Part shown: in pieces, positions 4,591 to 44,328 of the stretch
How the letters are laid out: each line of letters begins with the position of its first letter
How positions within the stretch are numbered: the first letter of the stretch is position 1
DNA from: an uncultured Acidimicrobiales bacterium
GTDB lineage: Bacteria > Actinomycetota > Acidimicrobiia > Acidimicrobiales > SHLQ01
Direction of reading: 5' to 3'
DNA length: 45,150 nt
Assembly: GCA_905479685.1 (NCBI GenBank)
Contig: CAJQNJ010000037.1
Span: forward strand, 1 to 45,150
Made by a program: the position numbers and the translations under genes
The notes under the pieces: generated by a model
Database searches by the model: none
Seen by the model: only the letters and a program-made list of their open reading frames with translations
What the model was told of the DNA's origin: nothing

Positions 4591-4596
4591 TATCAT
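4591..4596 (+). promoter_or_regulatory. -10 box TATCAT, leaderless-type
   Basis: TATCAT ends 8 nt before the ATG at 4605, with no Shine-Dalgarno in between. Transcription would start close to the start codon. It belongs to a recurrent pattern in the window. Confidence 0.5.
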
Positions 4597-4604
4597 CGCC
4601 AACC

Positions 4605-6917
4605 ATGCCACCGCCGACCCTGATGCCAGTACGTACCCGAGCGGGTTTGGCGCGCAGTTGCATGTTTGCCTTCGTATTGTTCGCATCGTCATGTGGTGGA
4701 AGCACTTCTGGAAGTGACGACGCAAACCCCGAATCGACCGACACCCAAGACGCAGCGGACGTGACCGGGACCTCTGGACCAGGGCAGACACTCGGCGAAC
4801 CCGAGCAGCCAGACGATCCCGAAACATTGACATCGTCATTCACCAAACTCAGCGAACCCGGTGTCGGGGGACGTATCACCTCACTCGCTTTCGACCCAAG
4901 CAACCCTGATCGCCTCTATGTCGGCGGTGACATGCTCGGCATCGCCATCACCGACAATTTCGGAGAAACCTGGCAGTCGACGAGCGGCCTGGTGTCATGG
5001 GAGATCGGCGACATCACCGCGACGACATCAGCGGACGGGCGTCTCTGGACCGGGAGCCTGTCCGGTCCACAGGCGTCGGCTGATGGCGGAAGCACCTGGG
5101 AACTGAGCCGTGCCGGTATGCCTGCGGTGTCGGAGTCCACGTACACCCTCGCGATCGAGACGGTACTGATCGATCCGGCTGATTCGAATCGACTCATGGC
5201 GTTCAATGGCAACCAGCGCAACTGGTCTGCGCCGGGGGTTTACGTCAATGGTGAGTGGACTGGCGACGGGTCGGTCTGGGAGTCGACCGATAGCGGCGCC
5301 AGCTGGAACCAGCTGTCGACGATTGGTTCGGGTGGGAACATCAGGGCTGCCACATTCACCTCGGGTGGAGCCCTTCTCGCCGCGGTTGCGAATCGTGGGG
5401 TCTGGATCTCGACCGACAACGGAACGACCTGGACCGAGTCATCCCAGGGCCTTCCCCACTTCAATGCCTACGACATCACCGCGCACCCCACAAACCCCGA
5501 TGTTGCTTGGGTGGCGATGGGCGAGGGACCCGACAGCGGCGGAACATTCATCACTGGAGGGATCTGGAAAACGAACGATGGTGGCGCGAGTTGGGACGAA
5601 TCGAACTCAGGTCTTTCCATCGTTTCGAACCCGACGGCTGGAAACACCGGCTCCTTCCACCAGATCGTCGTTGCGCCATCTGAACCGAGTCGGTTGTACA
5701 CGTCCAATGTTGCACCCGGGCAGGCAGCGATTTACCGCAGCGACGACGGAGGCGAGTCGTGGCGCGTCATCGCTGACGGCAGCACGAGCCGTCCCGATGC
5801 ATATGAGGGCGCACTGCGGGCGTACGACATCGCAGTACACCCAGCCGATCCCGACCGGATCGCAATCGGAAGCGACGACACGCTGCTCGGTTCGAAGACA
5901 GGCGGCGATACCTGGACCGATCTCACGACGATCGAAGACGCCGCCGGCTATTTTCACGGACGCGGGTACAGCGGACTTGTGAGCACCGACATCGTGTTCA
6001 ACCCAGAAGATCCCGCCGAGCTGATCCTTCTCGGCTTCGATGGGGGCAACTTCATCCAGACCCAAGACGCTGGCCTCACCTGGCGGCGGACTGCACAAGA
6101 GATCTCGGCATGGGGCGGAGGTGTCGAAGCCGCATATTCGCCGAACGGCAGCGACCGCATCTATGTGCTCCTCGGTCAATTCAGCAACTTCCGCGGGATC
6201 GGAGTCTCGATCGACGGAGGAACAACCTTCTCGTTGCTCGCAGGTTCGGCGAACGGCCTCCCAGAAGTGGGAAACGTCAAACGAGGCGCAGCGGGGCTGG
6301 CCGTCTTGGCTGATGGAACCACCGACATCGTATTCGCCGTGGTCGACACACAACTGTTCCGGAGCGCAGATGGCGGCCAGGATTTCGTCGCCGTGCCGGG
6401 TATCAGCGGGGCGAGAGATGTTGCTGTGACCCCATCGGGTTCGGTGTTCGTGACGACTGACTCGGGCACACTCGTCTCGATCGATCAGGGGCAAGGTTTC
6501 AACGACGCCGGTCGACCTCCAGCGGGCATCACCACGCTTTACACCTCGGCCACCGAACCCGACTCCGTGTATGGCATCGCATTCCGCGAAGGCCAAGGCG
6601 GCCTCCATCGTTTCGATGGTCAAAGCTGGACGCAGCTGTTCGACGACGAATTCTCTCACGGCGTAGCCATCGATCCATCAAACGCCGACAATCTCGCAGT
6701 CGTCACCACCGAGCCCGCATTCAATGACATCAGCGCGGCAACCGGTGTGCACCTGTCGTCAGATGGTGGCAAGACGTGGACTGCCGTGGTCGACGGCCTA
6801 CCCATGACGCGACTTCGTACGGCCGAATTCGATCCGGCAAACCCCGACCGGCTCGTCGTGGGCACGACCGGTCGCGGATTCTACGAGATCTCTTTTTCAG
6901 CCGCCCTCGGCGAGTGA
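4605..6917 (+). CDS. Asp-box (BNR/sortilin-like) beta-propeller lipoprotein
   Basis: The 770-residue protein begins with a lipoprotein signal (hydrophobic stretch, then ASSC with Cys30 as the likely lipidated residue) and a Ser/Asp/Glu-rich linker to about residue 85. The remainder carries about ten Asp-box motifs, for example SADGGSTW, STDSGASW, STDNGTTW, TNDGGASW, TQDAGLTW and SSDGGKTW, the hallmark of sialidase, sortilin/VPS10 and GH74 propellers. I infer a surface-anchored one- or two-propeller protein. The GH74 resemblance suggests glycan binding or cleavage, but I cannot assign catalytic residues. It sits between two flippase genes and its 3' end overlaps the convergent flippase gene by 21 bp. 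Confidence 0.82.
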   Translation: MPPPTLMPVRTRAGLARSCMFAFVLFASSCGGSTSGSDDANPESTDTQDAADVTGTSGPGQTLGEPEQPDDPETLTSSFTKLSEPGVGGRITSLAFDPSNPDRLYVGGDMLGIAITDNFGETWQSTSGLVSWEIGDITATTSADGRLWTGSLSGPQASADGGSTWELSRAGMPAVSESTYTLAIETVLIDPADSNRLMAFNGNQRNWSAPGVYVNGEWTGDGSVWESTDSGASWNQLSTIGSGGNIRAATFTSGGALLAAVANRGVWISTDNGTTWTESSQGLPHFNAYDITAHPTNPDVAWVAMGEGPDSGGTFITGGIWKTNDGGASWDESNSGLSIVSNPTAGNTGSFHQIVVAPSEPSRLYTSNVAPGQAAIYRSDDGGESWRVIADGSTSRPDAYEGALRAYDIAVHPADPDRIAIGSDDTLLGSKTGGDTWTDLTTIEDAAGYFHGRGYSGLVSTDIVFNPEDPAELILLGFDGGNFIQTQDAGLTWRRTAQEISAWGGGVEAAYSPNGSDRIYVLLGQFSNFRGIGVSIDGGTTFSLLAGSANGLPEVGNVKRGAAGLAVLADGTTDIVFAVVDTQLFRSADGGQDFVAVPGISGARDVAVTPSGSVFVTTDSGTLVSIDQGQGFNDAGRPPAGITTLYTSATEPDSVYGIAFREGQGGLHRFDGQSWTQLFDDEFSHGVAIDPSNADNLAVVTTEPAFNDISAATGVHLSSDGGKTWTAVVDGLPMTRLRTAEFDPANPDRLVVGTTGRGFYEISFSAALGE

Positions 6918-8207
6918 ATCGATAGTTGCGCCAGTTGCGCGCCCAGCCAGGACATCACGTTTCAGCGCGCGCCAGAACCAAAGCGCGACCAGCAAGGCGA
7001 CCGTGTACGAAACAGAGCTGGTGATGGCCGCACCCTCGATCCCGTACGGTCGAAGCAGGAGCGCGAGGCCGATCACCGTCGTCGCTGCTGACGCAACTTG
7101 GGCCTTCGATGCATTCTCCGGACGGTCGAAGTTCGCGAGCGCAGTCGAAACCACCTGATTCAGATCGGACGCAAACGCGCCTGGAAGCAGCAACAGAAGC
7201 GGACGCACGGACTCGCCGAACTCGTCTCCGAACACCCAAGGCACAGCAGTACCAGCCACGAGTGCGAGAGGGACCAGGACTGCCAGAGACGACATCGCCA
7301 CCCAGCGCATCGACCGACCGATGCGGGCCATTCGTTCGGCATCGTTGGACGCATGACGAATAAAGGGTTGGAGCGACTGTCCGATGCCACGAGACACGGG
7401 GCCCGAGAGCGTTGCCAATGCCGCCGCGACGGCGTACACACCGAGATCTTCGAGCGACACCAAGCCCACAAGGATCATTTGGTCGACGCGCAAGCTCACG
7501 ATGAACGACAGACTCCCCACCCAAGAGCGCAAGCCGTAGTTGCGCAGTTGGGTGAATCGGCTCGGAGCGCTGCTCCGCCCGGGCCAGGCGCGGTTGTACG
7601 TGAGGGTGACGGCCCACCCGATCGCAAGCGCGGCCATCGTCGACGTGAGAGCAGTGGTCACCGTCAGTTGATCAGCGATGAGCAACGTGAGATATCCACT
7701 CGTGACCAGCACCTGCGGGAGCGCAAGAAAGAGATTGAATCGCAGTGTGCTACCCGAGCCGCGAAGAAAGTACACCGCGCTCTGAAAGGGGCTCTGCAAG
7801 ATGTGCAGCGCAATGAATGCGAGGTACCACAACTTGAGCGATGACCCGCCCTGCTCGAACGCAGTCCCGTTGAGCTGCCACAGGTAGAGGGGCGTGAGAA
7901 GGAGCGCGAAAGGTACGGCCCCGAAGAGACACATCCGCCATACGGCGTTCATGACGACCTGTCGATCGACATCTTTGGCGAAGTAGCCCGCAGCGCTCGG
8001 CATGCCGAACTGAAAGGCCCATCCGAGCACAACCGTCGCTCCGTAGGCCGTCGCAACCGCCCCCCGCCCCTCAGCTCCGAGGGCGTTCGTGAGAATGACG
8101 GCGTTCACGAACGTGAGCGCGGCTATGAAGACGAAAGCTGCCGTCGTGACCGTGGTCGAAGCGCGCTGCCCCTGCACCCGCGTGCCGAGAGATCGGAACA
8201 GCGTCAC
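6897..8207 (-). CDS. Polysaccharide flippase, Wzx/MurJ-like (copy 2)
   Basis: The 436-residue polytopic membrane protein is collinear with the flippase at 2277-3584. Shared blocks include GRGAVATAYG, YFAKDVD, LKLWYLAFIALH, LRFNLFLALPQVL, SWVGSLSFIVSLRVDQ, DRPENASKAQ and YGIEGAAITSSVSY. It should flip a lipid-linked glycan. The ATG at 8207 overlaps the stop of the upstream FAD oxidoreductase gene (ATGA), so the two are probably co-translated. The 3' end overlaps the convergent propeller lipoprotein gene by 21 bp. Being in the opposite orientation to copy 1, it may serve a different glycan or a modified repeat unit. Confidence 0.88.
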   Translation of the reverse strand: MTLFRSLGTRVQGQRASTTVTTAAFVFIAALTFVNAVILTNALGAEGRGAVATAYGATVVLGWAFQFGMPSAAGYFAKDVDRQVVMNAVWRMCLFGAVPFALLLTPLYLWQLNGTAFEQGGSSLKLWYLAFIALHILQSPFQSAVYFLRGSGSTLRFNLFLALPQVLVTSGYLTLLIADQLTVTTALTSTMAALAIGWAVTLTYNRAWPGRSSAPSRFTQLRNYGLRSWVGSLSFIVSLRVDQMILVGLVSLEDLGVYAVAAALATLSGPVSRGIGQSLQPFIRHASNDAERMARIGRSMRWVAMSSLAVLVPLALVAGTAVPWVFGDEFGESVRPLLLLLPGAFASDLNQVVSTALANFDRPENASKAQVASAATTVIGLALLLRPYGIEGAAITSSVSYTVALLVALWFWRALKRDVLAGRATGATIDSLAEGG

Positions 8208-9808
8208 GTTGATGCTGCCAGGTTCGCCTTTCCTGCAATGTGTTCAGCGGTTCGAAGGGCCAAAAGCACGGCGGTGTAGGTCACCATTGCCACCCCCGCG
8301 GTCGGGAAGACGCTCCCCCCGGCGATGAACAAGTTGTCGAGCCCATGCACCTGCCCGAAGGCATCGACGACACCGTCCTCGGGGTGTTCACTCATTCGTG
8401 TTCCACCCATGAAGTGCGACGTGTTGATCGATCCCGCAGGCCACTCCTCGCCTTTGGGAAAGTCGGAGAACCATTTTCCGTAGCCGAACGCCTCGAATTC
8501 GGCCGCGAATGTTTCGAAGCTCCGCTGCAGATTCGACCGATCCTCGGGTTGGAGGTTCGACGTGATCTTCATCCGGGGAGTTCCGAGCGCGTCAACCTGG
8601 TCGGTGAGCTCGACTCGATTGTCTGGATGAGGAAATTGCTCAGCCCAGTTCCGTATCATCACACGAGACTCCTGGCCTCGTCCCCTCCGAAAGGCTTCAT
8701 TCACATACCGACCTGCCACACGGGCCACGTCCGCGGAGATTCCACCTGCGAGCCGGGGTGTGAACGGCGGAGGATCGAGAGGAGTCGTCGGCCTGTTGAG
8801 TGCCGACTTCACCGTGGAGACGGCACTGGAGCGATAGTTGAACGACGCGTGCGGTCGGAACCGCTCGAAGTTCGCCGCCGAATTGAGCAACTTCTCGTTG
8901 CGTTGGAGCTCCTCGGAGATCTGCAAGAAGGCAAATATTCGCTGCTCACCCGTTGGCTTCGGGACGAGGTGGTAGAACTCCCAGTCGAGCTCTGGATCGG
9001 GCTCCATCCAGCCTCGAAGCGCGCTGTGATGGGCGATCCAATAACGGCCCACCTGGTCGTAAGAATTGCCAACGCCTGCGGGAGATCGATCGCGACTCGC
9101 GAGGAGAAGTCGAGCATTCTCGGGTCCGGTTGCGAGCACATAGCTGTCCGCCGACACCGTCGTCGTGAGTGCCCCATCGACCGATCGGGCATCGAGACCG
9201 GTGACCGTGGAACCATCGGGCGAAGTCTGAATGTTCACGATCTGAGCGTTGAGGTACACCGTGAGCGCATCCGAACGATTGATCGGCCGCTCGAGGACCT
9301 GCCCGAGATGCCCGACCTCGGTCTTCTGCACGATCTTGGTCGTGACACGGTCGGAGCCTTCGAAGAGCACAGCATCTCGAACCCGCTCCAAACGATGCTT
9401 CCAATAATCGACGGAGAAATCCACCTCACCCAAACGAAAGAGCTCATGGATTCTCTCTGCATGGGGTGCGAGGTCTTCTGGACCGATCGGCCACTGCGCT
9501 TGCGGAACCCAGTCTCGGTTGAAGTCGACTGGGTCGAGCGGACTGTTGTTTCCCCCCCAGCAATTCGTCGAGCCTCCGAGGAATCGACTTCGCGATCGAA
9601 TCCAGATGGGGAGCGATCCCTTGACCTGTGCGTCGCTGAGCGCCTCGGCGCGATCGGATCGCTCGAAGTGCCCGGTCTCGAACATCGCAACGGTGGCTCC
9701 GTGCTCGATGAGACTCATCGCCATACTGAGTCCTGTGGCTCCGGTTCCTACGATCGCCACGTCGGCTCGGATCGACGCTGGAACACTCTCCGTCAGATCG
9801 ACAAACAC
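8204..9808 (-). CDS. GMC-type FAD-dependent oxidoreductase
   Basis: The 534-residue protein begins with an FAD-binding Rossmann motif (VAIVGTGATGLSMA, residues about 17-30, ending with Glu44 for the ribose). It ends with the GMC C-terminal signature: SHFMGGTRM (about 464-472), VHGLDNLFIAGGSVFPT (about 487-503) and a final helix. His465 would be the usual active-site histidine; the canonical NP(x)nT segment after SVFPT reads GVAMVT, a departure from choline/glucose oxidase types. GMC enzymes oxidise alcohols or sugars. Coupling to a flippase by ATGA suggests oxidation of a sugar or lipid-linked sugar, which is inference. The GTG at 9808 is supported by GAGGAG with a 7-nt spacer. Confidence 0.85.
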   Translation of the reverse strand: MFVDLTESVPASIRADVAIVGTGATGLSMAMSLIEHGATVAMFETGHFERSDRAEALSDAQVKGSLPIWIRSRSRFLGGSTNCWGGNNSPLDPVDFNRDWVPQAQWPIGPEDLAPHAERIHELFRLGEVDFSVDYWKHRLERVRDAVLFEGSDRVTTKIVQKTEVGHLGQVLERPINRSDALTVYLNAQIVNIQTSPDGSTVTGLDARSVDGALTTTVSADSYVLATGPENARLLLASRDRSPAGVGNSYDQVGRYWIAHHSALRGWMEPDPELDWEFYHLVPKPTGEQRIFAFLQISEELQRNEKLLNSAANFERFRPHASFNYRSSAVSTVKSALNRPTTPLDPPPFTPRLAGGISADVARVAGRYVNEAFRRGRGQESRVMIRNWAEQFPHPDNRVELTDQVDALGTPRMKITSNLQPEDRSNLQRSFETFAAEFEAFGYGKWFSDFPKGEEWPAGSINTSHFMGGTRMSEHPEDGVVDAFGQVHGLDNLFIAGGSVFPTAGVAMVTYTAVLLALRTAEHIAGKANLAAST

Positions 9809-9955
9809 AACGGTCTCCTCTTCGCGGCTGGCGGCCTACGGTGAATGGTACGGGCGCCAGCGGAACGCGACTCCACCGGCGATACCTCAACATCGGACAG
9901 AATCACAATCCCATGAGTACATCAAGCAGACCCATCTCCTCCCGATAGATCAATT

Positions 9956-11188
9956 GTGCCAACGCAGATCTCCGTCACCAGCTACTACTACCGCCGCGGC
10001 GGGGCCGAAGCAGTCATGCTCGACCAGAACGAACTGTTGGTCGATCGCGGGTGGGAAATCGTTCCGTTTGCGATGGAATACGAGCAAAACTTCGACACCG
10101 AGTACTCAGATTACTTCGTCGAGGAAATCGACTTCGCGAGCCAATACGCGCCGATCGAGAAGGTACGCAAGGTTGTCAAGTCGGTGTACTCCCTCGAGGC
10201 GCGACGTGAGATCGGGAGACTGATCGACGATGTCAGACCCGACATCGTCCATGCGCACAACGTGTATCACCACCTGACTCCATCGATATTCGGAGCGATT
10301 CACAAAAAGGGAGTGCCATCGGTGATGACCGTGCACGACCTCAAGATCGGTTGCCCCTCCAAGCTCATGCTTGCCCCCGATGGTGTGTGCGAACGATGCA
10401 AGGGTGGCAAGACATGGAACGCCATCGGACAGCGATGTCTCAAAGACTCGCTCGCCCTGTCGACCATCGCTGCGTTCGAGACCTCGCTCCATCAGATGTT
10501 GGGCAGCTACAAGAAGAATGTCGACCTGTTCATCCTCCCGAGCCATTTCCACATGAACAAACTCATCGACTGGGGACTTCCGGAGGAGAAGGCTCGATAC
10601 CTCCCCAACGCCGTGGATGTGTCAGACCTTTCACCAACGTACGGACCAGGCGAACGATTCGTCTTCGTAGGGCGACTCTCCGAAGAGAAAGGTTTGCTGA
10701 CATTCGTGAACGCCGTCGCAGCGAGCGGTGTCGCTGCAACCATCGTCGGCACCGGGCCCCAAGAACACGAACTCCGAGCCCTCGTGGAACGCACCGGCGC
10801 TGACGTCGACTTCGCTGGATATCAGACCGGCGACGCACTGTTCGACATCATCGGAGATGCTCGAGCGCTGGTATTACCCTCGGAGTGCTACGAGAACGCG
10901 CCCGTCGTGCTCCTCGAAGCCTTTGGCGTTGGCACGCCGGTAATCGGCTCAGACCTCGGTGGGATTCCCGAGCTCATCGTCCCTGGCGAAACCGGCCTCC
11001 TCGCCACAGCCGGCGATGTCGATTCGTTTGCCACCCAGCTGCGCAAGATGAACCTCAAGAGCCGCTCGGAGTTGTCCGAAATGGGTCATGCGGGACGCGA
11101 GTTCGTTGAAACTCGGTTCACGCGAAATCACTACCTCGAAGGGTTGTTCGACATCTATCGAGAACTTGACGTGACTATTGATCGCTGA
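9956..11188 (+). CDS. Glycosyltransferase family 4 (GT-B)
   Basis: The 410-residue product has a GT-B layout. The N-terminal half begins SYYYRRGGAEAVMLDQ, as in many GT4 enzymes, and contains a cysteine cluster (C-x11-C-x2-C and one more Cys, about residues 129-159) seen in some of these transferases. The C-terminal half has FVFVGRLSEEKGL and the EX7E pair Glu313/Glu321 in PSECYENAPVVLLEAF. It should transfer a sugar from a nucleotide donor to the growing lipid-linked repeat unit. The start is GTG at 9956; no ATG lies in frame nearby and no clear Shine-Dalgarno is present, so the start is less certain. Confidence 0.9.
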   Translation: MPTQISVTSYYYRRGGAEAVMLDQNELLVDRGWEIVPFAMEYEQNFDTEYSDYFVEEIDFASQYAPIEKVRKVVKSVYSLEARREIGRLIDDVRPDIVHAHNVYHHLTPSIFGAIHKKGVPSVMTVHDLKIGCPSKLMLAPDGVCERCKGGKTWNAIGQRCLKDSLALSTIAAFETSLHQMLGSYKKNVDLFILPSHFHMNKLIDWGLPEEKARYLPNAVDVSDLSPTYGPGERFVFVGRLSEEKGLLTFVNAVAASGVAATIVGTGPQEHELRALVERTGADVDFAGYQTGDALFDIIGDARALVLPSECYENAPVVLLEAFGVGTPVIGSDLGGIPELIVPGETGLLATAGDVDSFATQLRKMNLKSRSELSEMGHAGREFVETRFTRNHYLEGLFDIYRELDVTIDR

Positions 11189-11314
11189 TTGACCCTTTTT
11201 GTGGCAATACGCCCCTTGACGCCGCACAGCGTGCCGCGATAGCTGTAGACAAGGACGAAGCGTGGCCGTTTCTCATCGGGAGGAACGACTGCTTCGGGGC
11301 GAGGTCTGAGTTAC

Positions 11315-13282
11315 ATGCGACGCATTGAGTCGTTCGACATTTTCGACACGGTACTGACACGGCGGGTCGGTGATCCTCGTGCGGCGTTTCTACAGCTCGG
11401 GCAACGTCTGGCGTCAAAACAGCTCATCGCATGTTCGGGCGAGTCCTTTGCGCGGCAGCGGACCGCAGCTGAGATTCGTGCATTCAAGAATGCCGGCGGT
11501 CTTGATTCGTCGGTGAACATCGGCACGATCTACGACGAGATGCGAGTCTCCCTCGGTATCGATCGCAGTACACAGGGCAAACTCATCGCCGAGGAGCTCG
11601 ACCTCGAGAGCGATCTCCTCGTGCCGATGTCCGACGGCGTCCAGCGCATCGCAGCGGCGCGCATGCGCGGTCATGAAGTTGTATTCGTTTCGGACATGTA
11701 CCTCCCGAGCTGGTTCATCCGGGAGCAACTTGTATTGCACAAGCTGATCGAGGATGAGGATCGACTGTTCGTGTCCAACGAGTACAGCGCGTCGAAGGCA
11801 ACAGGCGCCCTTTGGCCACATGTCCTACGCGAACTCGGCGTCTCGGCGAAGCACGTTCACCACACCGGCAATGACAAGAGGAGCGACTTCCTCACGCCGC
11901 AACGGGCAGGAATGCGCGCGACTCACGTGGACGCTGGCAATCTCAACCGCTTCGAGAAGCAACTCGAGATGTGGGCGTACGAGACCGATGGCATGACCTC
12001 GCTCCTCGCTGGTGCTTCACGCCGGGTCAGAACTGAGCTCCACGGTCAGACCGAACACGAACGACACATCCGCGATGTCACAGCTGGCGTTGTCACACCG
12101 TTCCTCATCGGCAACGTCTTGTGGATTCTTCGACAAGCCATGGAGAGCCATATAGAAAAGGTCTTCTTCATCGCTCGCGACGGGCAGATCATGCTCGACA
12201 TCGCCGAGGAGCTCGCGCCAAAGGTCGGCTACACCGGCGAGCTCTCGTACCTGCTCGGCAGTCGAACAGCATGGCTGCTTCCGAGTCTGACCAGCATCGA
12301 CGACGACAAGATCTCGGCTGTTGTCCCACCGACGGGCGATGTCGACGGCGTGACACTCGAGCTCGTCGCACACCGGTTCGGTGTCGAGCCCGAACAGCTC
12401 GAACCACACCTGAGCAAGGCCGGGCTCGTGCCCAGCATGTGGCGTGAGCCGCTTTCGGACGAACACCGACTGAGACTTTGCCAACTGCTCGGACACGACG
12501 ACGTGTCCGCGACGATCCTCGATCTCGCATCCGAACAGCGCTCGCTCATGCTGCGGTATCTCGAGCGGGAGGGTGTCATCACGAATGCCCCGATCGCCGT
12601 CGTCGACCAAGGAACGGGTTCGACGCTCTTCAATGCACTCAGCTCAGTGCTCGAGACCGTCGGACAACGACCTCCACTTGCGTTCTACTTCGGCCAGCGC
12701 CCCGACGCAGCAGATCTGGGATTTGGTTCCCCCGAGGCATACATCCGAAACGAGCGTTCGGGCACCGGCTTCTTGAAGACCCCAGGGCTGCTCACCCTCG
12801 TCGAGATGGCGTGTAACGCAGACCATGGGTCGGTCACCGGGTACAGCGAAGTAAATGGAGAAGTGGTTGCCGATCTCGTCGAACCGAAAAACGTCGCAGT
12901 CATCAACTGGGGCTTCGAAATGCTTCGTTCGACGATCCGTGCGACGGTGTTGCAGCTTGCAACATCTCCTCTTCAGCTACCCAGCGATATCGATCTGCGA
13001 CCCTCGACAATCGATGTGTTCGAGCTGTTCTGGACTCGCCCGACGCGAGCCGAAGCCACGGCGTGGGGCAGTTACCCGTTCGAAGACGGCTGGAGCGGGG
13101 ACACGGTCAGCCTGCCAATCGCGCAACGCCAAGGGATCCGGGCAGCGATGCAAAGCCAACCGCACCGTCACTGGTGGAACGGCGGCGCCGAAGCACTCAG
13201 CGCGCCGATCCCCCGAACGATGCTTCGAGTACGCGCCGAGCTTGTTTCGTTCGTTCGCAAAGTGAACCGGCGACTCAGGTAG
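11315..13282 (+). CDS. HAD-superfamily protein of polysaccharide loci (COG5610-like)
   Basis: The 655-residue protein opens with a HAD motif I, SFDIFDTVLTRR, with nucleophile Asp8; the +2 residue is Phe10 instead of Asp, as in haloacid dehalogenase-type members. VFVSDMYLP (about 126-134) fits motif II, and GNDKRSDF resembles motif IV. The second half contains VFFIARDGQIMLDIAEEL (about 285-302), a HAD-like repeat typical of the COG5610 proteins found in surface glycan clusters. The substrate is unknown; phosphatase or phosphotransferase action on a sugar is plausible. GAGG about 10 nt before the ATG is a usable ribosome site. A 126-bp gap with no clear gene precedes it. Confidence 0.75.
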   Translation: MRRIESFDIFDTVLTRRVGDPRAAFLQLGQRLASKQLIACSGESFARQRTAAEIRAFKNAGGLDSSVNIGTIYDEMRVSLGIDRSTQGKLIAEELDLESDLLVPMSDGVQRIAAARMRGHEVVFVSDMYLPSWFIREQLVLHKLIEDEDRLFVSNEYSASKATGALWPHVLRELGVSAKHVHHTGNDKRSDFLTPQRAGMRATHVDAGNLNRFEKQLEMWAYETDGMTSLLAGASRRVRTELHGQTEHERHIRDVTAGVVTPFLIGNVLWILRQAMESHIEKVFFIARDGQIMLDIAEELAPKVGYTGELSYLLGSRTAWLLPSLTSIDDDKISAVVPPTGDVDGVTLELVAHRFGVEPEQLEPHLSKAGLVPSMWREPLSDEHRLRLCQLLGHDDVSATILDLASEQRSLMLRYLEREGVITNAPIAVVDQGTGSTLFNALSSVLETVGQRPPLAFYFGQRPDAADLGFGSPEAYIRNERSGTGFLKTPGLLTLVEMACNADHGSVTGYSEVNGEVVADLVEPKNVAVINWGFEMLRSTIRATVLQLATSPLQLPSDIDLRPSTIDVFELFWTRPTRAEATAWGSYPFEDGWSGDTVSLPIAQRQGIRAAMQSQPHRHWWNGGAEALSAPIPRTMLRVRAELVSFVRKVNRRLR

Positions 13283-13490
13283 ACGCCTCCCCGTGTCAAT
13301 CGGGTTACAGGCGGGCCAAGAACCGCTGCGCGCCCTGCAAAACAACATGGTTTTGGCTTATGGTTGCCCTCACAGCGACCGAAGGATTCCTCACAGGCGT
13401 GCATCCGCAGGAATCATTGTGGGCGTAATTACCGCAGCACGTGGTTGCGGGAATAGTCTGTCTTGACTGCGTGTGAGGGAAGAATTCTGA

Positions 13491-14765
13491 ATGACCGATA
13501 TCGAGAGCGATAACTCGGGAGAACTTTCCTCCTTCCTGCACCTCACCGGTTGGCGGCCGCTCGTCTTGGCGCTCGTTGCAGGCCTTGCGGGTGCAGCGGG
13601 CTTGTTCGGCGCGCTCGATGCGCCTACGGAATGGCAGGCGCGATACGTGCTCAATGCGAATCGTGTGGCCCAAGACGACTTCCAGCCGGCCGAACTCGAC
13701 ATTTTCGTCGAAGAGATTGCACAAACAGCGAAGTTTCCCGCTGTCGTGAACGCAGTCGAGGCACGCACGGGACTCGTCCACGAAGAGAGCTACGTGATCA
13801 CGGTGAACCAATCCGGTGCCAGTGTGGCCACCGTCGACATCAACGTGGTGTCAGAGAACCCTGCCGATGCCCAGAGCGTTGCCATCGAAACCGGGATCGA
13901 GGCCCTGACGATCACCCTCGAGAAGACCCTCGCTGGGGACAAAGCTGGCGCCCGCCAGAACGAAGCAGAGTTGGCAGAACTCGACGCGCAGGTCACCGTA
14001 CTGACGCGGGAAGCAGGCGGGCTCAACCCGACGACGGCATACGACCTTGCGACGACAGCGGTCGTGGTGCGAAGAGAGTTCCAAATCAATCGGCCCACTG
14101 AAGTGGTTTTCGACGAAGACGGTGTTCCGAGCACACAGCTCGTGCCTGAGCCCGAACCATCACTCGAGGTCCTCGAGGCCGAAGCCAACCGACTCGAACC
14201 CATCGACCGTCAGTACCGCCAATTGGTCACACAGATCGACGCCATCAACGTGCGACTCGCCGATCAGCGGAATGCGATTCGCGACGGCGAAGCCGCGCTT
14301 GCTTCCATCGAGACCGAGCGCGAACAACCGTTGATCATCTCCGAAGTCGTCACTGAAGAAACCTCACGCATCGCCAGCCTCCTCACGGGTCTGCTCCTAT
14401 TTGCTGTTCCAGTAGCCCTGCTGACCATCTTGGTGTTCACGATCTGGGACCTCGTCCGAAAGAGGCCAAAAGCCTCCCTGCGTCATGCCGATGACTTCGA
14501 AGCGGCCGGAATCCTCGAAGCACAAGGATCGCGAGCGCTGCCCGAAGCGAACTTCACGCCCCTCGTTGTAGTGGATGAGGACGACGAGGCCGAGGCCGAC
14601 GTGCTCGAAGAACTCGACGAGTTCGACGAGTTCGACGAGTTCGACGAAGAAGAGACCGATGATGAGCCTGACGAGAGGTTCATTGATGAGACAGAGGACA
14701 CCTCGACCGAGAAGCGATCGAAGGATGGTCGCTGGGGCCGGGACGCAAGTAGCAAAGCAGGCTGA
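13491..14765 (+). CDS. Wzz-like chain-length protein with acidic cytoplasmic tail (copy 2)
   Basis: The 424-residue protein has a membrane helix at about 21-42, an extracytoplasmic region with heptad-like segments (about 155-175 and 225-275), a second helix at about 300-319 and a long C-terminal tail. The tail (about 355-405) is extremely acidic and includes a repeated Asp-Glu-Phe unit encoded by a 9-bp tandem repeat. No Walker A/B is visible, so it is not a BY-kinase fusion; the tail could dock a partner. GAGGGAAG about 8 nt before the ATG is a good ribosome site. It leads a run of tightly spaced genes (sulfotransferase, ligase, GT2), pointing to one operon. Confidence 0.75.
   Translation: MTDIESDNSGELSSFLHLTGWRPLVLALVAGLAGAAGLFGALDAPTEWQARYVLNANRVAQDDFQPAELDIFVEEIAQTAKFPAVVNAVEARTGLVHEESYVITVNQSGASVATVDINVVSENPADAQSVAIETGIEALTITLEKTLAGDKAGARQNEAELAELDAQVTVLTREAGGLNPTTAYDLATTAVVVRREFQINRPTEVVFDEDGVPSTQLVPEPEPSLEVLEAEANRLEPIDRQYRQLVTQIDAINVRLADQRNAIRDGEAALASIETEREQPLIISEVVTEETSRIASLLTGLLLFAVPVALLTILVFTIWDLVRKRPKASLRHADDFEAAGILEAQGSRALPEANFTPLVVVDEDDEAEADVLEELDEFDEFDEFDEEETDDEPDERFIDETEDTSTEKRSKDGRWGRDASSKAG
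14613..14648 (+). repeat. 9-bp tandem repeat, four copies
   Basis: Four in-frame copies of YTCGACGAR (CTCGACGAG, TTCGACGAG twice, TTCGACGAA) encode (Leu/Phe)-Asp-Glu in the acidic tail of the second Wzz-like protein. Copy-number slippage would lengthen or shorten the tail by three residues without a frameshift. Confidence 0.85.
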
Positions 14766-14767
14766 AC

Positions 14768-15679
14768 ATGGCCACCAACCCTCCGGTATTCATTGTCGGC
14801 GCGGGGCGGAGCGGCTCGACAGCCTTTCACCACGCGTTCGCCCGACACCCACACGTCTCTTGGGTCTCGAAGATTCTCGATGTCTTGCCCTCGGGTGAGC
14901 GTCTCAATTCAGCGCTTCTCCGAGGTCTCGACACACCTCTCATCGGTGCAGCTATCTCGCGAGGGCTCATCGAACCCGGGCACCTCAAGCCGAGCGAGGC
15001 ATACGCTTACTGGGAACGAATCGCCCCTGGATTCAGCGAGCCTTTTCGTGACCTGCTCGCCACGGATCTGACCGAACGAACGAAGTCGAACCTTCAGTCC
15101 GCAGTCAGCCGCTTGACCGTCGATGGTCGACCAACGCCACTGATCAAGATCACCGGGTGGCCTCGAATTGGCTACCTCCAAGCAGCCTTCCCCGATGCCA
15201 AGTTCATCCACATCGTTCGCGACGGTCGGGCCGTGGTGAATTCGATCATGCAGATCGACTTTTGGGAAGGCTGGCGAGGAACCAAGGGCTGGCGCGGTCA
15301 AGACATGACACCTGAGCAGTCCGCTCGCTGGGAGGCATCGGGTCAATCCTTCGTGACACTCGGTGCCATGGAGCTATCGGACATGTTCGACGCCATGGTT
15401 ACAGCGACGACGTTGGTCCCCAGTACCCGTTTCTTGGAGCTCCGATACGAAGATCTCTGCGATGACCCCGCCGGCACATTCGAGACCGTGTGTGAATTCT
15501 CCGATGTTGAACTCACGACCGGCTTCAAACAGGCCGTGATCGACTTCGGCTTCCGAAACACGAACGACAAGTGGCGACGCGACCTGACCAGCCTCCAGCA
15601 GCGCCAGCTCGAGGCCGAGCTGGCCCCACATCTCACGCGCTGGGGATACGAACTCGCATTCGGAGATGCTGCAACGTGA
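14768..15679 (+). CDS. PAPS-dependent sulfotransferase
   Basis: The 303-residue protein carries the 5'-phosphosulfate loop near the N-terminus (FIVGAGRSGSTAFHHAF, residues 8-24) and the 3'-phosphate motif FIHIVRDGRAVVNSI (146-160, with Arg151 and Ser159). Sulfotransferases of this type move sulfate from PAPS to hydroxyl groups of carbohydrates or small molecules. It lies two bases after the Wzz-like gene, and its stop overlaps the next start (GTGA), within a polysaccharide operon, so a sulfated surface glycan is likely (inference). No PAPS synthesis genes are in the window. Confidence 0.88.
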   Translation: MATNPPVFIVGAGRSGSTAFHHAFARHPHVSWVSKILDVLPSGERLNSALLRGLDTPLIGAAISRGLIEPGHLKPSEAYAYWERIAPGFSEPFRDLLATDLTERTKSNLQSAVSRLTVDGRPTPLIKITGWPRIGYLQAAFPDAKFIHIVRDGRAVVNSIMQIDFWEGWRGTKGWRGQDMTPEQSARWEASGQSFVTLGAMELSDMFDAMVTATTLVPSTRFLELRYEDLCDDPAGTFETVCEFSDVELTTGFKQAVIDFGFRNTNDKWRRDLTSLQQRQLEAELAPHLTRWGYELAFGDAAT

Positions 15680-17196
15680 CCACCTACTCGACGACTCCGC
15701 CGAGCGACCGAGTGTCGGTCCGGGTCGAGCCCGAGAAGCCCCAGCAACGCAACCCAGGGCCGCTTCCGGGGCCCATGTCCATCTTCGTCGTCCTCGGGGC
15801 AATCATCGTGGGCTTGGCTGCCGCCCTTGCGTTTCAATCCACCTCTCCGGACACGCCGTTCGTCATTCTCGGTGGGACAGTTCTGTCTGCGGTGATTCTG
15901 GCGATCATCGGGCTCTACCGGTACTCCTGGTTCTTGTTGATCACCCTTGCGGTACGCCCCGCTCTCGATGACCTGATCGCTGACGAGTTCGGCACGTTCC
16001 AGCCATCGGCGATTCTCGGGATCCTGGCCATTCTCGTCACGTTGCTCCATCTCATCAGTCGGAAACGAAGCGGCAACTGGAATCCGATCACACCACTGGG
16101 CTGGGCATTCATTGGCTTCTTCATCCTCTTCGTCCCAAGTTTCGTTACTTCCATTGATCGAGGAGTCTCCCAAGGAGCGATGTTCGGCCTCGCCTCCGTT
16201 GTTCTCCTGTATCTCGCCATAGAACAGATGCTTCTCGAAGACGGCCGGAACCTCTGGAAGCTCCTTGCCGCATCGGGCATCGGGATGATCGTGCCGTTCA
16301 TCACTGGACTCGTGCAGTTCTTCTTCACCGGCACCCTCGACCCCGGTGGGTCAGGCCTGGTGAGGATCGATGGTTCGTTCGCCCACCCGAACTCCTATGC
16401 CACATATCTGAGTTTTGTCGTGCTCCTCACGATCAGTGTCATTCCGACCGTCGATGTCAAGCAGAAGCTCGTCGTCTTGTCAGCGGCCTGCCTCGGAGGC
16501 TTCCTTCTGATCGCCACGTTCGCACGAGGGGCGTGGGCGAGTTTCCTGATCGGCGCGCTCGTCATGGCGGCTCGTATCAACAAGAAACTGGTGATCGTGA
16601 TCCTTGTAGGTGCGATGGCCGTCGCGGCGGCCGTACCGGGCGTTGGCGATCGACTCTCGAACCTGACTGCCACCACCGGGGCAAACGGTGGTGTCAAGAC
16701 CGATGACTCTCTCGGCTGGCGAATCGGCTATTGGGAGAAGGTTGCACCATTCTTTTGGGAGAACCCGGTGTCGGGCGTGGGTCTCGATGCGACCAAGACT
16801 CGGACGATCGAGGAAAAAGATCCGCACAACAGCTTCCTACAGGCATTCATCGAGGGGGGCCTCCTCGGCGGCATGGGCTTCCTCCTGGTGCTCGGCTTCG
16901 CCACATACGCAGGGTGGAAGACGTGGAAGAAGGCACGCGACAACGTCCTCGATCGGCAGATGAGACTGGTCAGCGTCGGAGCAATCGCCGCGCTGCTGTC
17001 CGTGGCCGCGCAGCTGATCACCGAGAACGTTCTCCTCAATACGATCGTCTGGTGGTACCTCAACATCGCATTCGCTCACCTGGCCGTGCTCACATGGGGC
17101 GCAAAGAGGATCACTCCACCTGTCGAACCCGACTACAGCCTTCCGCAGCTCCCGAGCGGCGATCCACCCGCACGACGAATTGAAAGCCCAATATGA
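15676..17196 (+). CDS. O-antigen ligase/polymerase (Wzy/WaaL-like)
   Basis: The product is a polytopic membrane protein of 506 residues with about 10-12 hydrophobic helices. A soluble loop before the last helices contains NPVSGVGLDATKT and DPHNSFLQAFIEGGLLGG, matching the Wzy_C/O-antigen ligase signature (HNxFL followed by a glycine-rich helix). It should polymerise or ligate flipped repeat units outside the membrane. I choose the GTG at 15676 because it overlaps the sulfotransferase stop as GTGA; an upstream in-frame start at 15571 would give an improbable Arg-rich N-terminus. The stop overlaps the next gene as ATGA. Confidence 0.87.
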   Translation: MTTYSTTPPSDRVSVRVEPEKPQQRNPGPLPGPMSIFVVLGAIIVGLAAALAFQSTSPDTPFVILGGTVLSAVILAIIGLYRYSWFLLITLAVRPALDDLIADEFGTFQPSAILGILAILVTLLHLISRKRSGNWNPITPLGWAFIGFFILFVPSFVTSIDRGVSQGAMFGLASVVLLYLAIEQMLLEDGRNLWKLLAASGIGMIVPFITGLVQFFFTGTLDPGGSGLVRIDGSFAHPNSYATYLSFVVLLTISVIPTVDVKQKLVVLSAACLGGFLLIATFARGAWASFLIGALVMAARINKKLVIVILVGAMAVAAAVPGVGDRLSNLTATTGANGGVKTDDSLGWRIGYWEKVAPFFWENPVSGVGLDATKTRTIEEKDPHNSFLQAFIEGGLLGGMGFLLVLGFATYAGWKTWKKARDNVLDRQMRLVSVGAIAALLSVAAQLITENVLLNTIVWWYLNIAFAHLAVLTWGAKRITPPVEPDYSLPQLPSGDPPARRIESPI

Positions 17197-23707: not shown

Positions 23708-23713
23708 ACGATA
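23708..23713 (-). promoter_or_regulatory. -10 box TATCGT, leaderless-type
   Basis: On the minus strand TATCGT is followed by 7 nt and then GTG 23700, without a Shine-Dalgarno. It is half of a compact divergent promoter with the box at 23742-23747. Confidence 0.5.
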
Positions 23714-23741: not shown

Positions 23742-23747
23742 TACCGT
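23742..23747 (+). promoter_or_regulatory. -10 box TACCGT, leaderless-type
   Basis: TACCGT is followed by 7 nt (TTCGCCC) and the GTG at 23755; no Shine-Dalgarno is present. Confidence 0.5.
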
Positions 23748-27598: not shown

Positions 27599-27604
27599 TA
27601 CCCT
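27599..27604 (+). promoter_or_regulatory. -10 box TACCCT, leaderless-type
   Basis: TACCCT is followed by 6 nt (GTCGGA) and the ATG at 27611. No Shine-Dalgarno is seen. Confidence 0.5.
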
Positions 27605-27997: not shown

Positions 27998-30595
27998 ATC
28001 TCGCTACTCGACCACCTCCCCGCGTCTGGCGCTGAGCCCGACGAACTCATCGACGCATTCGTCGACTACAGCACCTCAGCGGGACTCGAGCTCTACTCGG
28101 CCCAAGAAGAAGCCATCCTCGAACTCCTGTCGGGAAACCACGTGATCCTGGCAACGCCCACAGGGTCCGGAAAATCTCTCGTCGGAATGGCCGGGCACTT
28201 CGCGTCGATGGCGCGCGGGCAGCGCAGTTACTACACCGCTCCGATCAAGGCCCTCGTCTCGGAGAAGTTCTTCGCGCTGAGTCGCGAGCTCGGATCGGAG
28301 AACGTCGGCATGGTGACCGGCGACGCGTCTGTCAACTCCAAGGCACCAATCATCTGCTGTACCCAAGAGATCCTTGCCAACATCGCATTGCGACAGGGTG
28401 CAAGCGCCAACATCGGCCTCGCAGTGGTCGACGAATTCCACTACTACGCAGACCCGCAACGTGGCTGGGCATGGCAGGTCCCGCTCCTCGAGATGCCCCA
28501 GGTCCAGTTCCTGTTGATGTCTGCGACGCTCGGGCCTACTGATCGCTTCGAAACAGACCTCGAGGCCCGCACCGGCCGCGAGGTGTCAACCGTCTCCAGC
28601 AGCGAACGACCGGTCCCCCTCGACTTTGCCTGGCAGACGACCGCCATCCACGAAACGGTCGAGTCGTTGCTCGAAACGGGTCGGGCTCCCGTCTATGTCG
28701 TCTACTTCACACAGAAGTCAGCGCTCGAGGCAGCCCAATCGTTCACGAGCTTGTCGATCTGCACCAAGGAAGAAAAGGCGGCGATTCGCGATGAGGTCGG
28801 CAGCTTCCGATTCGACTCCCCGATCGGCAAAGACCTCAAGCGGTTTCTTTCCCATGGCGTAGGAATTCATCACGCTGGACTTCTCCCGAAGTATCGCCTG
28901 CTGATGGAGAAGCTCGCGCAGAAGGGCTTGCTCAAGGTCATCGTCGGGACCGACACGCTTGGCGTCGGTGTCAACGTACCGATTCGTTCTGTACTCCTCA
29001 CCCAGTTGTTCAAGTACGACGGCCAGAAGGTGCGAATTCTGACCGTCAGGGAATTCCAGCAGATCGCTGGCCGAGCGGGGCGCAAGGGGTTCGACGATCA
29101 GGGCACGGTTTGGGTGCAGGCTCCTGCACATGTGGTCGACAATCTCGCTGCGGATCGTAAAGCGGCCGCGGATCCGAAAAAGAAGAAGAAGGCTCAGAAG
29201 AAGAAACCACCCGATCGCGGCTATGCGCACTGGACCGAGGACACGTTCACGAAGTTGGTCAACGGATCGCCCGAGCCCATGATCTCGAGTTTCACCGTGA
29301 CACATCAGATGCTGCTCAACCTTCTCGATCGACCACCCATATCGGGAAGTCGCGCGCAACCTGGTGGTTGTGATGCCGTCAAGCGTCTTCTGCAGGACAA
29401 CCACGAGACCCGAAAGGCACAGCGAAATCACGTGCGCCGGACGATCTCGATGTACCGCTCCCTTCTCGACGCTGGTGTCGTCGAACACCTCGAGAACGCA
29501 GACGACGAGGGCCGACTCGTTCGTGTCACCCTCGACCTCCAAGACGACTTCGCATTGAATCAGCCCCTCTCCCTGTTCGCTCTCGAGGTGATCGAGAGTC
29601 TTGATCGAGAAGCCCCAGACCACGCGCTCGACGTGTTGTCGGTCATCGAGTCCGTGCTCGAGAACCCAGGCGCCGTGTTGGCGGCACAGCTCGACAAGGC
29701 AAAGACCGACCTCGTCGGCGAGATGAAGCGCAACGGCGTCGAATACGAGGAACGCATGGAGCGCCTCGAGACCGTCGAGTACCCGAAACCGTTGCGCGAT
29801 GACCTCTACGAGGCGTTCAACGGCTTCCGTACCCGGCATCCGTGGGTTGGTCAGGAGAACGTCAAGCCGAAGTCGATCGTTCGAGAGTTGTACGAGCGGG
29901 TGATGACCTTTAGTGAGTACGTCGCCGACTACGGGATGAAACGCAGCGAAGGCGTGGTGCTCAGATATTTGACCGATGCGTACCGAGCCATGATGCAGAC
30001 AGTGCCCGACAGTGAAAAAACCGACGATGTCATCGACATCATCGAGTGGCTGGGCGAATTGGTCCGACAGGTCGACTCGAGCCTCATCGACGAGTGGGAA
30101 CGCCTCACCAACCCTGAACCCGATGACCTCGCCCTCGCTGGCGCGGAATCAGATTCTCGATTCTCGGTGATCGAGGCTGCACCCCGCGATGTCACATCCA
30201 ATGCACGAGCCTTCCGAGTGATGGCGCGCAACGAAGCATTCCGCTGGGTTCAGCTGCTCGAACGCCGAAACATCGCCGAGTTGTCTCGGCGCTCCGACCC
30301 GGACCACGCGTCTGATGATGAACGTCCGTCGACGCCCCTTCGACCCTTCGATCAGGTCGAGCGTATGGTCGATGCGTACTATGCCGAGCACGACAGTGTC
30401 CTCACCGGCCCCGACGCGCGAGGCGCCGAATTCTTTCAACTTGGCGAGCCCGAGGACGAGATGATCCCCGTTCGTCAGGTCGTACGTGATCCAGCGGGCC
30501 ACGACGAGTGGGGCCTCACTGGATGGGTCGACCTCGATCGTTCACGAGCCCTCGGCCAAGCCGTCGTCGTCTTCGACGAAGCGCGCCGGCTGTAA
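27998..30595 (+). CDS. Ski2-like DExH-box RNA/DNA helicase
   Basis: This large superfamily 2 helicase shows a Q-motif-like LYSAQEEAI, Walker A ATPTGSGKS, motif II DEFH, motif III SAT, GVGVNVP and motif VI QIAGRAGRKG. A lysine-rich insert (KKKKKAQKKK) and a long helical C-terminal region complete it. The gene is certain, the start is not: between the TAG at 27986 and GTG 28142 the frame has no ATG, GTG or TTG, yet it encodes the expected N-terminus (SLLDHLP...). I place the start provisionally at ATC 27998, where relatives (from memory) have a Met; this gives 865 residues. Starting at GTG 28142 would delete the Q motif. Confidence 0.85.
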   Translation: MSLLDHLPASGAEPDELIDAFVDYSTSAGLELYSAQEEAILELLSGNHVILATPTGSGKSLVGMAGHFASMARGQRSYYTAPIKALVSEKFFALSRELGSENVGMVTGDASVNSKAPIICCTQEILANIALRQGASANIGLAVVDEFHYYADPQRGWAWQVPLLEMPQVQFLLMSATLGPTDRFETDLEARTGREVSTVSSSERPVPLDFAWQTTAIHETVESLLETGRAPVYVVYFTQKSALEAAQSFTSLSICTKEEKAAIRDEVGSFRFDSPIGKDLKRFLSHGVGIHHAGLLPKYRLLMEKLAQKGLLKVIVGTDTLGVGVNVPIRSVLLTQLFKYDGQKVRILTVREFQQIAGRAGRKGFDDQGTVWVQAPAHVVDNLAADRKAAADPKKKKKAQKKKPPDRGYAHWTEDTFTKLVNGSPEPMISSFTVTHQMLLNLLDRPPISGSRAQPGGCDAVKRLLQDNHETRKAQRNHVRRTISMYRSLLDAGVVEHLENADDEGRLVRVTLDLQDDFALNQPLSLFALEVIESLDREAPDHALDVLSVIESVLENPGAVLAAQLDKAKTDLVGEMKRNGVEYEERMERLETVEYPKPLRDDLYEAFNGFRTRHPWVGQENVKPKSIVRELYERVMTFSEYVADYGMKRSEGVVLRYLTDAYRAMMQTVPDSEKTDDVIDIIEWLGELVRQVDSSLIDEWERLTNPEPDDLALAGAESDSRFSVIEAAPRDVTSNARAFRVMARNEAFRWVQLLERRNIAELSRRSDPDHASDDERPSTPLRPFDQVERMVDAYYAEHDSVLTGPDARGAEFFQLGEPEDEMIPVRQVVRDPAGHDEWGLTGWVDLDRSRALGQAVVVFDEARRL

Positions 30596-30598
30596 CGT
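30593..30598 (+). promoter_or_regulatory. -10 box TAACGT, leaderless-type
   Basis: TAACGT is followed by 6 nt (TTCCCC) and the ATG at 30605. Its first three bases are the stop codon of the helicase. No Shine-Dalgarno is seen. Confidence 0.5.
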
Positions 30599-31546: not shown

Positions 31547-31660
31547 ATGTCAGAGTCACTTCCCAACGGCCTCGTACAACACTCCGGCGGCGACAAGGAT
31601 CACGATCGGGCAGCTCGACCGGAACGGCGATTCTCGGAACGTCGTGCGGGCGCGCAATGA
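31547..31660 (+). CDS. Small ORF (37 aa) translationally coupled to ybaK
   Basis: A short ORF starts at ATG 31547 with AGAGGA placed 6 nt upstream, one of the better Shine-Dalgarno sites in the window. Its TGA overlaps the ATG of the YbaK-type gene (ATGA). The peptide is hydrophilic and Arg-rich in its second half (RRFSERRAGAQ). I recognise no family. It could be a real small protein or a leader ORF that loads ribosomes for the downstream gene, which has no site of its own. Confidence 0.5.
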   Translation: MSESLPNGLVQHSGGDKDHDRAARPERRFSERRAGAQ

Positions 31661-32121
31661 CGCCGGCATGTCGGGCACTCGATGCGGCGGGCATCGAGTA
31701 CACGCTGCATCCATACGAACATGACCCTTCCTCGACGTCGTACGGCGACGAGGCTGTGGCGGCGATCGGTGTCGAACCCGATCGGGTGTTCAAGACTCTG
31801 ATGGCGCTTCTCGACACCGACGAATTGGTCGTTGCGATCGTACCGGTGAGCAGCATGCTCGATCTGAAGGCGCTCGCATCGGCGCTGGGAACGAAACGAG
31901 CCACCATGGCCCCGGTTGCGCTGGCCGAGGGCAGTTCAGGCTACGTGGCTGGGGGAATCAGCCCATTCGGTCAGCGGACGCCACGACGAACGGCCATCGA
32001 CGAGATCGCGTTGGCGTGCGACACCATCTTCGTGAGTGGCGGTCGGCGAGGCCTAGACCTCGAACTGCCCCCCAGCCAGCTCATCTCGCTCCTGCAGGCG
32101 ACCGTGGCGACCCTGGTGTAG
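31657..32121 (+). CDS. ybaK: YbaK/EbsC-type Cys-tRNA(Pro) deacylase
   Basis: The 154-residue protein matches the YbaK/EbsC family, which clears mischarged Cys-tRNA(Pro). It starts MTPACRALDAAGI, followed by VFKTLMALLD with the conserved Lys, a central strand region VVAIVPVSSMLDLKALA, and GGISPFGQRT, the family glycine-rich loop. The ATG at 31657 overlaps the stop of the 37-codon ORF; the same frame is open further upstream to 31477 but has no family similarity there. A second, more distant family member is at 44401-44889. Confidence 0.88.
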   Translation: MTPACRALDAAGIEYTLHPYEHDPSSTSYGDEAVAAIGVEPDRVFKTLMALLDTDELVVAIVPVSSMLDLKALASALGTKRATMAPVALAEGSSGYVAGGISPFGQRTPRRTAIDEIALACDTIFVSGGRRGLDLELPPSQLISLLQATVATLV

Positions 32122-35687: not shown

Positions 35688-35693
35688 AACGTA
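35688..35693 (-). promoter_or_regulatory. -10 box TACGTT, leaderless-type
   Basis: On the minus strand TACGTT is followed by 8 nt (CGCGGTCC) and ATG 35679. No Shine-Dalgarno is present. Confidence 0.4.
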
Positions 35694-35770: not shown

Positions 35771-35776
35771 TAAGAT
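35771..35776 (+). promoter_or_regulatory. -10 box TAAGAT, leaderless-type
   Basis: TAAGAT is followed by 6 nt (TGCAGT) and GTG 35783. It would start the operon that runs to gluQ. Confidence 0.5.
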
Positions 35777-40691: not shown

Positions 40692-40736
40692 GCACCGAGC
40701 GTATTACCTCGAGGTCGAGCCGAGCGGTTGCGGCCC

Positions 40737-40742
40737 TATCCT
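40737..40742 (+). promoter_or_regulatory. -10 box TATCCT, leaderless-type
   Basis: TATCCT is followed by 6 nt (TGACGA) and GTG 40749; no Shine-Dalgarno is present. Confidence 0.55.
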
Positions 40743-42769: not shown

Positions 42770-42775
42770 TAGGAT
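42770..42775 (+). promoter_or_regulatory. -10 box TAGGAT, leaderless-type
   Basis: TAGGAT is followed by 6 nt (CGACTC) and GTG 42782; no Shine-Dalgarno precedes the start. Confidence 0.5.
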
Positions 42776-43473: not shown

Positions 43474-43479
43474 TAACGT
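43474..43479 (+). promoter_or_regulatory. -10 box TAACGT, leaderless-type
   Basis: TAACGT is followed by 6 nt (GATCGA) and ATG 43486, the same hexamer and spacing as in front of the lipid kinase at 30605. Confidence 0.55.
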
Positions 43480-43485
43480 GATCGA

Positions 43486-44328
43486 ATGCGCATTCTGGTC
43501 ACGAACGATGACGGCATCGACTCTGTAGGCCTCCACGCTCTCGCCAACGCCATGCGACCATTCGGAGAGGTGATGGTCGTTGCGCCAGCCACCGAGTACT
43601 CGGGCGCCGGCGCTTCGCTCGGAACGCTGACGTTCGACGAACCGATTGCACGGCCCGAGCAGATCGAGGCCCTCGATGGACTCACGACCTGGTCGATCAC
43701 CGGTCCTCCGGCGTTGTGCGTGATGTATGCACAGCTCGGCTCGTTTGGCGAGCCCTTCGACCTCATCGTTTCAGGGATCAACCCCGGCCAAAACGTCGGG
43801 TGGTCGGTCTATCACTCCGGGACAATCGGGGCGGCACTCACGGGACGGAATCGCGGGGCCAGTGGCATTGCTGTCAGCATGGGCTTCAACGGCAAGGACG
43901 TCGAAGGGCAGACCTGGGACCAAATCGTCGACGGAATGATCTGGGAGACCGGAGCAACCGTTGCGAGCCAGATCGTTCAGGCGATGATCGAGAACCCAAC
44001 CGCTGCACCCGTCGTGATCAACTGCAACGTGCCGAACAGGAAACTCGAAGACCTCGCGGGATGGGAACACGCACGAGTCGGCAGCGAACCGCCACGGAAG
44101 CTCGTCACTGGCACGCTCGTCGAGGCCGACCCCGATGAGCTTGGTGAGGTTTTTCATCTCTCGATGGACTGGGGAGCCGCAGGCCAAGTCGTACCCGGTA
44201 CGGACGCATGGCTCGTACGGAACAACACCGTTTCGGTCACCTGGCTCGGTCATCTCTCCGAGACAACACCCGATCTCGCACAACACGACGGTGTCCAATC
44301 ACGCCTCGACACGTTGTTCGCCCCCTGA
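43486..44328 (+). CDS. surE: 5'/3'-nucleotidase SurE
   Basis: The 280-residue protein starts MRILVTNDDGIDSVGL with the metal ligands Asp8 and Asp9, continues APATEYSGAGASL with Ser39, and has SGINPGQNVGWSVYHSGTIGAA with the ligand Asn. SurE removes phosphate from nucleoside monophosphates and is linked to stress survival. It is slightly longer than the common 250-residue form. ATG 43486 follows a TAACGT box by 6 nt. It converges on the second YbaK-like gene; the 72-bp gap holds nothing recognisable. Confidence 0.95.
   Translation: MRILVTNDDGIDSVGLHALANAMRPFGEVMVVAPATEYSGAGASLGTLTFDEPIARPEQIEALDGLTTWSITGPPALCVMYAQLGSFGEPFDLIVSGINPGQNVGWSVYHSGTIGAALTGRNRGASGIAVSMGFNGKDVEGQTWDQIVDGMIWETGATVASQIVQAMIENPTAAPVVINCNVPNRKLEDLAGWEHARVGSEPPRKLVTGTLVEADPDELGEVFHLSMDWGAAGQVVPGTDAWLVRNNTVSVTWLGHLSETTPDLAQHDGVQSRLDTLFAP

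Follow-up and report, generated by a model that had tools for sequence, protein, structure and literature searches.

Conserved TANNNT hexamers at a fixed short distance before start codons point to leaderless gene expression in an uncultured Acidimicrobiales lineage

Leaderless (TA-led) genes are reported in 86 of 89 actinobacterial genomes, where they make up approximately 20% of genes (PMC3160421, Zheng et al. 2011); the first T of their TANNNT lies around 12 bp upstream of the start codon, and they coexist with genes led by a Shine-Dalgarno (SD) sequence. In Mycobacterium tuberculosis, TANNNT is reported 7–12 bp upstream of 73% of primary transcription start sites (TSSs), with no -35 motif and with closely juxtaposed divergent promoters, and leaderless transcripts account for 26% of the genes with a primary TSS (PMC3898074, Cortes et al. 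2013); in mycobacteria, a 5′-terminal ATG or GTG is described as necessary and sufficient (PMC4633059). In Deinococcus, an ORF-adjacent -10 motif was shown to act as a promoter, and across Deinococcus-Thermus TANNNT is described as adjoining ORFs, a bare -10 element being sufficient there (PMC12340547).

The arrangement described here, in an uncultured Acidimicrobiales bacterium, has TANNNT close to the start codon in common with all of these systems, the coexistence with SD-led genes in common with the actinobacterial survey, and the lack of a -35 motif and closely facing divergent genes in common with M. tuberculosis. It differs from M. tuberculosis in that transcript starts were measured there by TSS mapping, whereas those considered here are inferred from sequence, and from Deinococcus-Thermus, which is another phylum and in which promoter function was tested experimentally. 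The main text of the actinobacterial survey (PMC3160421) does not name Acidimicrobium, and relative to it the gene-by-gene footprint in one uncultured genus amounts to no more than added detail. No dedicated report on leaderless genes in Acidimicrobiales or Ilumatobacter was found in open-licence full texts. The kind of system is already known; the present case is a well-supported new instance, extending, in sequence, a known actinobacterial expression mode to this lineage.

The window is the whole stretch of DNA analysed (G000:C37:1-45150; 45,150 nt), from a genome of 3.2 Mb in 246 contigs that is 85.3% complete and has a G+C content of 0.59–0.62. Membership in the Actinobacteria was judged from relatives of the ABC-F protein, which fall in Acidimicrobiales at 11 of 13 loci, the others being one in Actinomycetes and one distant match in Oscillospiraceae (26% identity). 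Scanning the window for Rfam families and for tRNAs gave no matches, and no 16S rRNA match was obtained in the genome with a search that was positive in 9 of 14 control genomes. Genes were called by codon score only, upstream DNA never being consulted; 36 were called in the window.

The earlier note on this DNA had listed ten starts preceded at 6–8 nt by TANNNT, six of them at exactly 6 nt. All ten hexamers are present, and the count of six is correct (Table 1); the start codons are five ATG and five GTG. An eleventh hexamer, absent from that list, precedes the DUF445 gene that is divergent to the ABC-F gene. The accompanying statement that these ten starts lack an SD sequence has one blemish: at 42782 an AGGA, 7 nt from the GTG, lies within the hexamer (TAGGAT). 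The product of 23755 scores 25.9 bits against PF08534, slightly below the cut-off, and the gene at 27611 has a third-position share of differences of 0.60; this share is 0.52 for the gene at 35679 (minus strand), which the codon-score gene caller missed. The site at 4605 is the weakest of the ten, and those at 30605 and 42782 carry caveats.

Table 1. TANNNT hexamers of the window and the start codons that they precede
Hexamer	Positions	Strand	Gap (nt)	Start codon	Product	Start differs from longest ORF
TATCAT	4591..4596	+	8	ATG 4605	sortilin/BNR-repeat protein, Pfam PF15902	
TATCGT	23708..23713	-	7	GTG 23700	no Pfam match	yes
TACCGT	23742..23747	+	7	GTG 23755	redoxin-like	yes
TACCCT	27599..27604	+	6	ATG 27611	125 aa, no Pfam family at 0.001	yes
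TAACGT	30593..30598	+	6	ATG 30605	YegS/DAGK-type lipid kinase	
TACGTT	35688..35693	-	8	ATG 35679	136 aa, no Pfam match	yes
TAAGAT	35771..35776	+	6	GTG 35783	300 aa, no Pfam match at 0.001	
TACGCT	40698..40703	-	6	GTG 40691	DUF445 (PF04286 3e-109)	
TATCCT	40737..40742	+	6	GTG 40749	ABC-F ATPase	
TAGGAT	42770..42775	+	6	GTG 42782	plsC-like acyltransferase	
TAACGT	43474..43479	+	6	ATG 43486	surE	

We consider it highly likely that these hexamers are -10 promoter elements from which transcripts start on the start codon, yielding leaderless mRNA. Each hexamer would constitute the -10 element of a housekeeping-type (sigma-A) promoter, at which RNA polymerase is expected to bind and open the DNA; the transcript would then start 6–8 nt past the last T, which places its first nucleotide at the A or G of the ATG/GTG or no more than approximately two bases away. 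Such an mRNA would have neither a 5′ leader nor an SD sequence, and ribosomes would presumably engage its 5′-terminal start codon directly. The observations to be accommodated are the hexamer itself, its fixed spacing to starts genome-wide, its conservation among orthologues, and the lack of a -35 consensus.

The earlier note had named the lack of a genome-wide TANNNT peak at 6–8 nt as a refutation of its reading; the peak is present in a sample of 20 stretches on eight other contigs (372.8 kb; 11.7% of the genome). The hexamer ends 6, 7 and 8 nt before the codon-chosen start in 24, 8 and 8 of 305 genes, respectively, and in 24, 9 and 6 of 307 genes in a second run, for which the gene caller was retrained without the window. 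The background at offsets 12–59 averages 1.10 genes per position (n = 307), and internal in-frame ATG/GTG codons (n = 5303) give a flat profile, with 2, 1 and 3 matches at 6, 7 and 8 nt. What had been noticed by eye within 45 kb proves to be a genome-wide signal. When any plausible start is allowed (on average 4.3 per gene in the sample and 4.56 in the window), 65 of 307 genes have TANNNT at 6–8 nt, compared with a mean of 13.0 and a maximum of 20 in shifted three-wide windows. Leaderless-type genes would make up about 17% of this sample above background (n = 307), and approximately one gene in six may be expressed in this mode, alongside SD-led genes. The epithet 'widespread', applied to the pattern earlier, is apt in that sense but not in the sense of most genes; SD-led genes coexist with them. 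A whole-genome count of TANNNT-N6-ATG showed no excess (131+129, against 147+157 in a reversed control) and was judged uninformative; the reversed control is a poor null, since, of the 32 ATG matches within the 372.8 kb sampled, 24 coincide with a plausible start of a called gene.

Matches of this kind might also be coincidences, picked by a reader free to shift start codons among the several open to each gene. With one codon-chosen start per gene, chance accounts for 1.1% of genes at 6–8 nt (3 x 1.10 of 307), and with any plausible start for around 1.5 of the 36 window genes; the rate of one gene in forty estimated by hand in the earlier note was of the right order of magnitude. Against these values, 10 of the 36 called genes match when any plausible start is allowed (binomial P 1.7e-6), a set that counts 40691 (minus) and omits the uncalled gene at 35679 (minus), and 5 of 36 match with codon-only starts.

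The orthologous starts bear further on this question. Orthologues of the ten genes in ten congeneric genomes gave 100 gene-genome cases, of which 13 (7 of them at 4605) were excluded because the match began after query residue 6, had <40% identity or lay <60 nt from the locus end, or because there was no in-frame start codon within 8 codons. TANNNT lies 6–8 nt before 80 of the 87 located starts, seven being without it, in genomes that are not mutually independent (upstream sequences are near-identical in G006/G008 and in G007/G010); shifted windows (offsets 12–51) gave a mean of 0.23 and a maximum of 1, and base-shuffled upstream sequences a mean of 1.66 and a maximum of 7 of 87. The hexamer is kept in 10/10 orthologues each at 23700 (minus), 23755, 27611 and 40749 (ABC-F; one locus, L035, was assigned to G008 by elimination), in 8/8 located orthologues at 35679 (minus) and in 9/9 at 35783. 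The corresponding figures are 7/9 for the lipid kinase, 8/9 for surE, and 7/9 for the plsC-like gene, in which G001 and G006 are without it and G001 has an SD-like word, AGGTGA, near the start. At 4605, the start was located in 3/10 relatives, with the hexamer at 6–8 nt in one and at 9 nt in two. For the DUF445 gene, an in-frame GTG with TANNNT at 6, 7 or 8 nt is found in all 10 loci whose match extends to the start region, the start being displaced by some codons. Together, the window count, the sample peak and the 80/87 conservation already refute the coincidence reading for the set as a whole, and we assign it almost no probability; single sites may be chance matches, 4605 and, through a stop-codon overlap, 30605 being the candidates.

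The same conservation backs the start-codon corrections made earlier, including the four starts that do not correspond to the longest ORF. In this way, footprinting across related MAGs can settle start codons and locate internal promoters in an order with no cultured source of RNA to draw on.

No -35 consensus was found in 73 aligned upstream sequences (63 from the sample and 10 from the window), the information content upstream, outside the hexamer, being at most 0.14 bit; TTGACA-like words were likewise not enriched at spacers of 16–18 in these 73. Among orthologues, positions N3–N5 of the hexamer vary (mean identity 0.61; that of its T, A and T is 1.0 by construction), and the DNA further upstream is near-random. 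A conserved -35 element was rejected as a candidate, identity in the -35 zone being 0.41 compared with 0.37 in the spacer. The 63 hexamer genes of the sample start with ATG (45) or GTG (18) and never with TTG, a weak contrast given that only about 3 TTG starts would be expected from 16/305 overall.

The hexamer might instead be a -10 element of leadered transcripts, with the true start codon lying further downstream behind an SD sequence. The start codons were picked by computation, and SD-led genes do occur in the genome, as SD-like words peak 4–10 nt before starts in the sample. Such transcripts are, however, very unlikely at these genes: the hexamer is held at 6–8 nt relative to the start codon, orthologue homology begins at residue 1 for most of these starts, and SurE begins with MRILVTNDDG, which we take to be the typical N-terminus of its family. 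An apparent exclusion between the two signals (SD-like words in 0/40 hexamer genes and in 80/265 others) follows almost inevitably from geometry, the place of an SD sequence being taken up by the hexamer, and was dropped as evidence.

Gene context bears on whether the hexamer acts in DNA, as a leaderless -10 promoter would, or in RNA. In the sample it precedes 32/102 divergent genes and, among co-directional genes, 12/79 with a gap of >60 nt, 11/51 with a gap of 11–60 nt and 6/68 with a gap of <=10 nt. The divergent class differs from the tight co-directional class (31/102 and 5/64 in an earlier count; Fisher P 0.0005), and the 11–60 nt class less clearly so (P 0.054), in a test that is confounded, as closely packed genes have coding sequence in front of them, which is poor in TANNNT and by itself lowers the tight-class figure. 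Position by itself cannot separate a DNA from an RNA signal, and non-SD ribosome binding sites are reported in other bacteria (PMC9581028), so that an AT-rich ribosome binding signal on leadered mRNAs has to be weighed. A hexamer rarer before tight co-directional than before divergent genes is the opposite of what ribosome binding would need, subject to the same confounding by coding composition, and T-A-N-N-N-T is the form of the actinobacterial -10 element; we regard an RNA signal as extremely improbable. The form of the hexamer, its constant spacing, its greater frequency before divergent genes and the missing -35 element fit a leaderless -10 promoter, as judged from sequence.

Divergent pairs are matched on both sides in 4 of 51 cases in the sample, as independence predicts (Fisher P 1.0). 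The facing hexamers of two divergent pairs lie 41–82 and 32–90 bp apart in relatives; a conserved bidirectional promoter was rejected, as this spacing is not kept and doubly matched pairs are not in excess. A third divergent pair with hexamers on both sides is formed by the DUF445 and ABC-F genes, whose start codons are separated by 57 nt. Tight divergent pairs with TANNNT at 6–8 nt on both sides also occur on contigs C8, C61 and C50 of the same genome, G000 (L051, L059 and L063), and in the congeneric genome G002 (L147 and L150); their starts are 37–49 nt apart and the facing hexamers 11–23 bp apart, so that the two promoters must overlap.

The earlier note had also proposed internal operon promoters for surE, the plsC-like gene and the lipid kinase gene. 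These lie close behind their upstream genes (plsC-like 41 nt after ABC-F, surE 26 nt after plsC-like, lipid kinase 9 nt), and the proposal is supported by the retention of the hexamers in most relatives. At 30605, the DUF3516 helicase gene (28142-30595) ends on the TAA with which the hexamer begins. In five other relatives the lipid kinase hexamer lies 13, 22, 30, 30 and 1097 nt beyond the helicase stop, a comparison that leaves out L069 and L071 (unusable coordinates) and L068 (no match); the helicase stop codon alone does not, therefore, explain this hexamer. A stop codon serving as the first bases of the hexamer of the next gene is also seen in G002 (TAG).

Four further genomes of the order were sampled at 100 kb each. 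TANNNT ends 6, 7 and 8 nt before the start in 3, 4 and 3 of 85 genes in G002, 4, 0 and 0 of 58 in G020, 0, 4 and 1 of 63 in G024, and 6, 5 and 2 of 83 in G029, over backgrounds of 0.02–0.23 per position. The signal is present in 5/5 genomes sampled, these being small samples from one order that include two congeneric genomes (G000 and G002). Outside the genus, the surE hexamer is kept at 5 of 20 loci (L011-L030); the initiation mode of this gene, as read from sequence, turns over with distance, in the manner described for Actinobacteria (PMC3160421). It is conceivable, if unlikely, that the mode is a selected, gene-specific trait within the genus, a bare -10 element without a -35 being kept at 6–8 nt amid rewritten DNA, including operon interiors and freely spaced divergent pairs. 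If so, it could allow a fixed set of genes to be expressed selectively under conditions that impair SD-dependent initiation.

The window also contains a polysaccharide cluster at 2250-18663, which encodes two Polysacc_synt flippases, glycosyltransferases, a sulfotransferase, a Wzy_C ligase and a hexapeptide transferase, and genes for two proteins with an aminoacyl-tRNA editing domain (PF04073), at 31477-32121 and 44401-45024.
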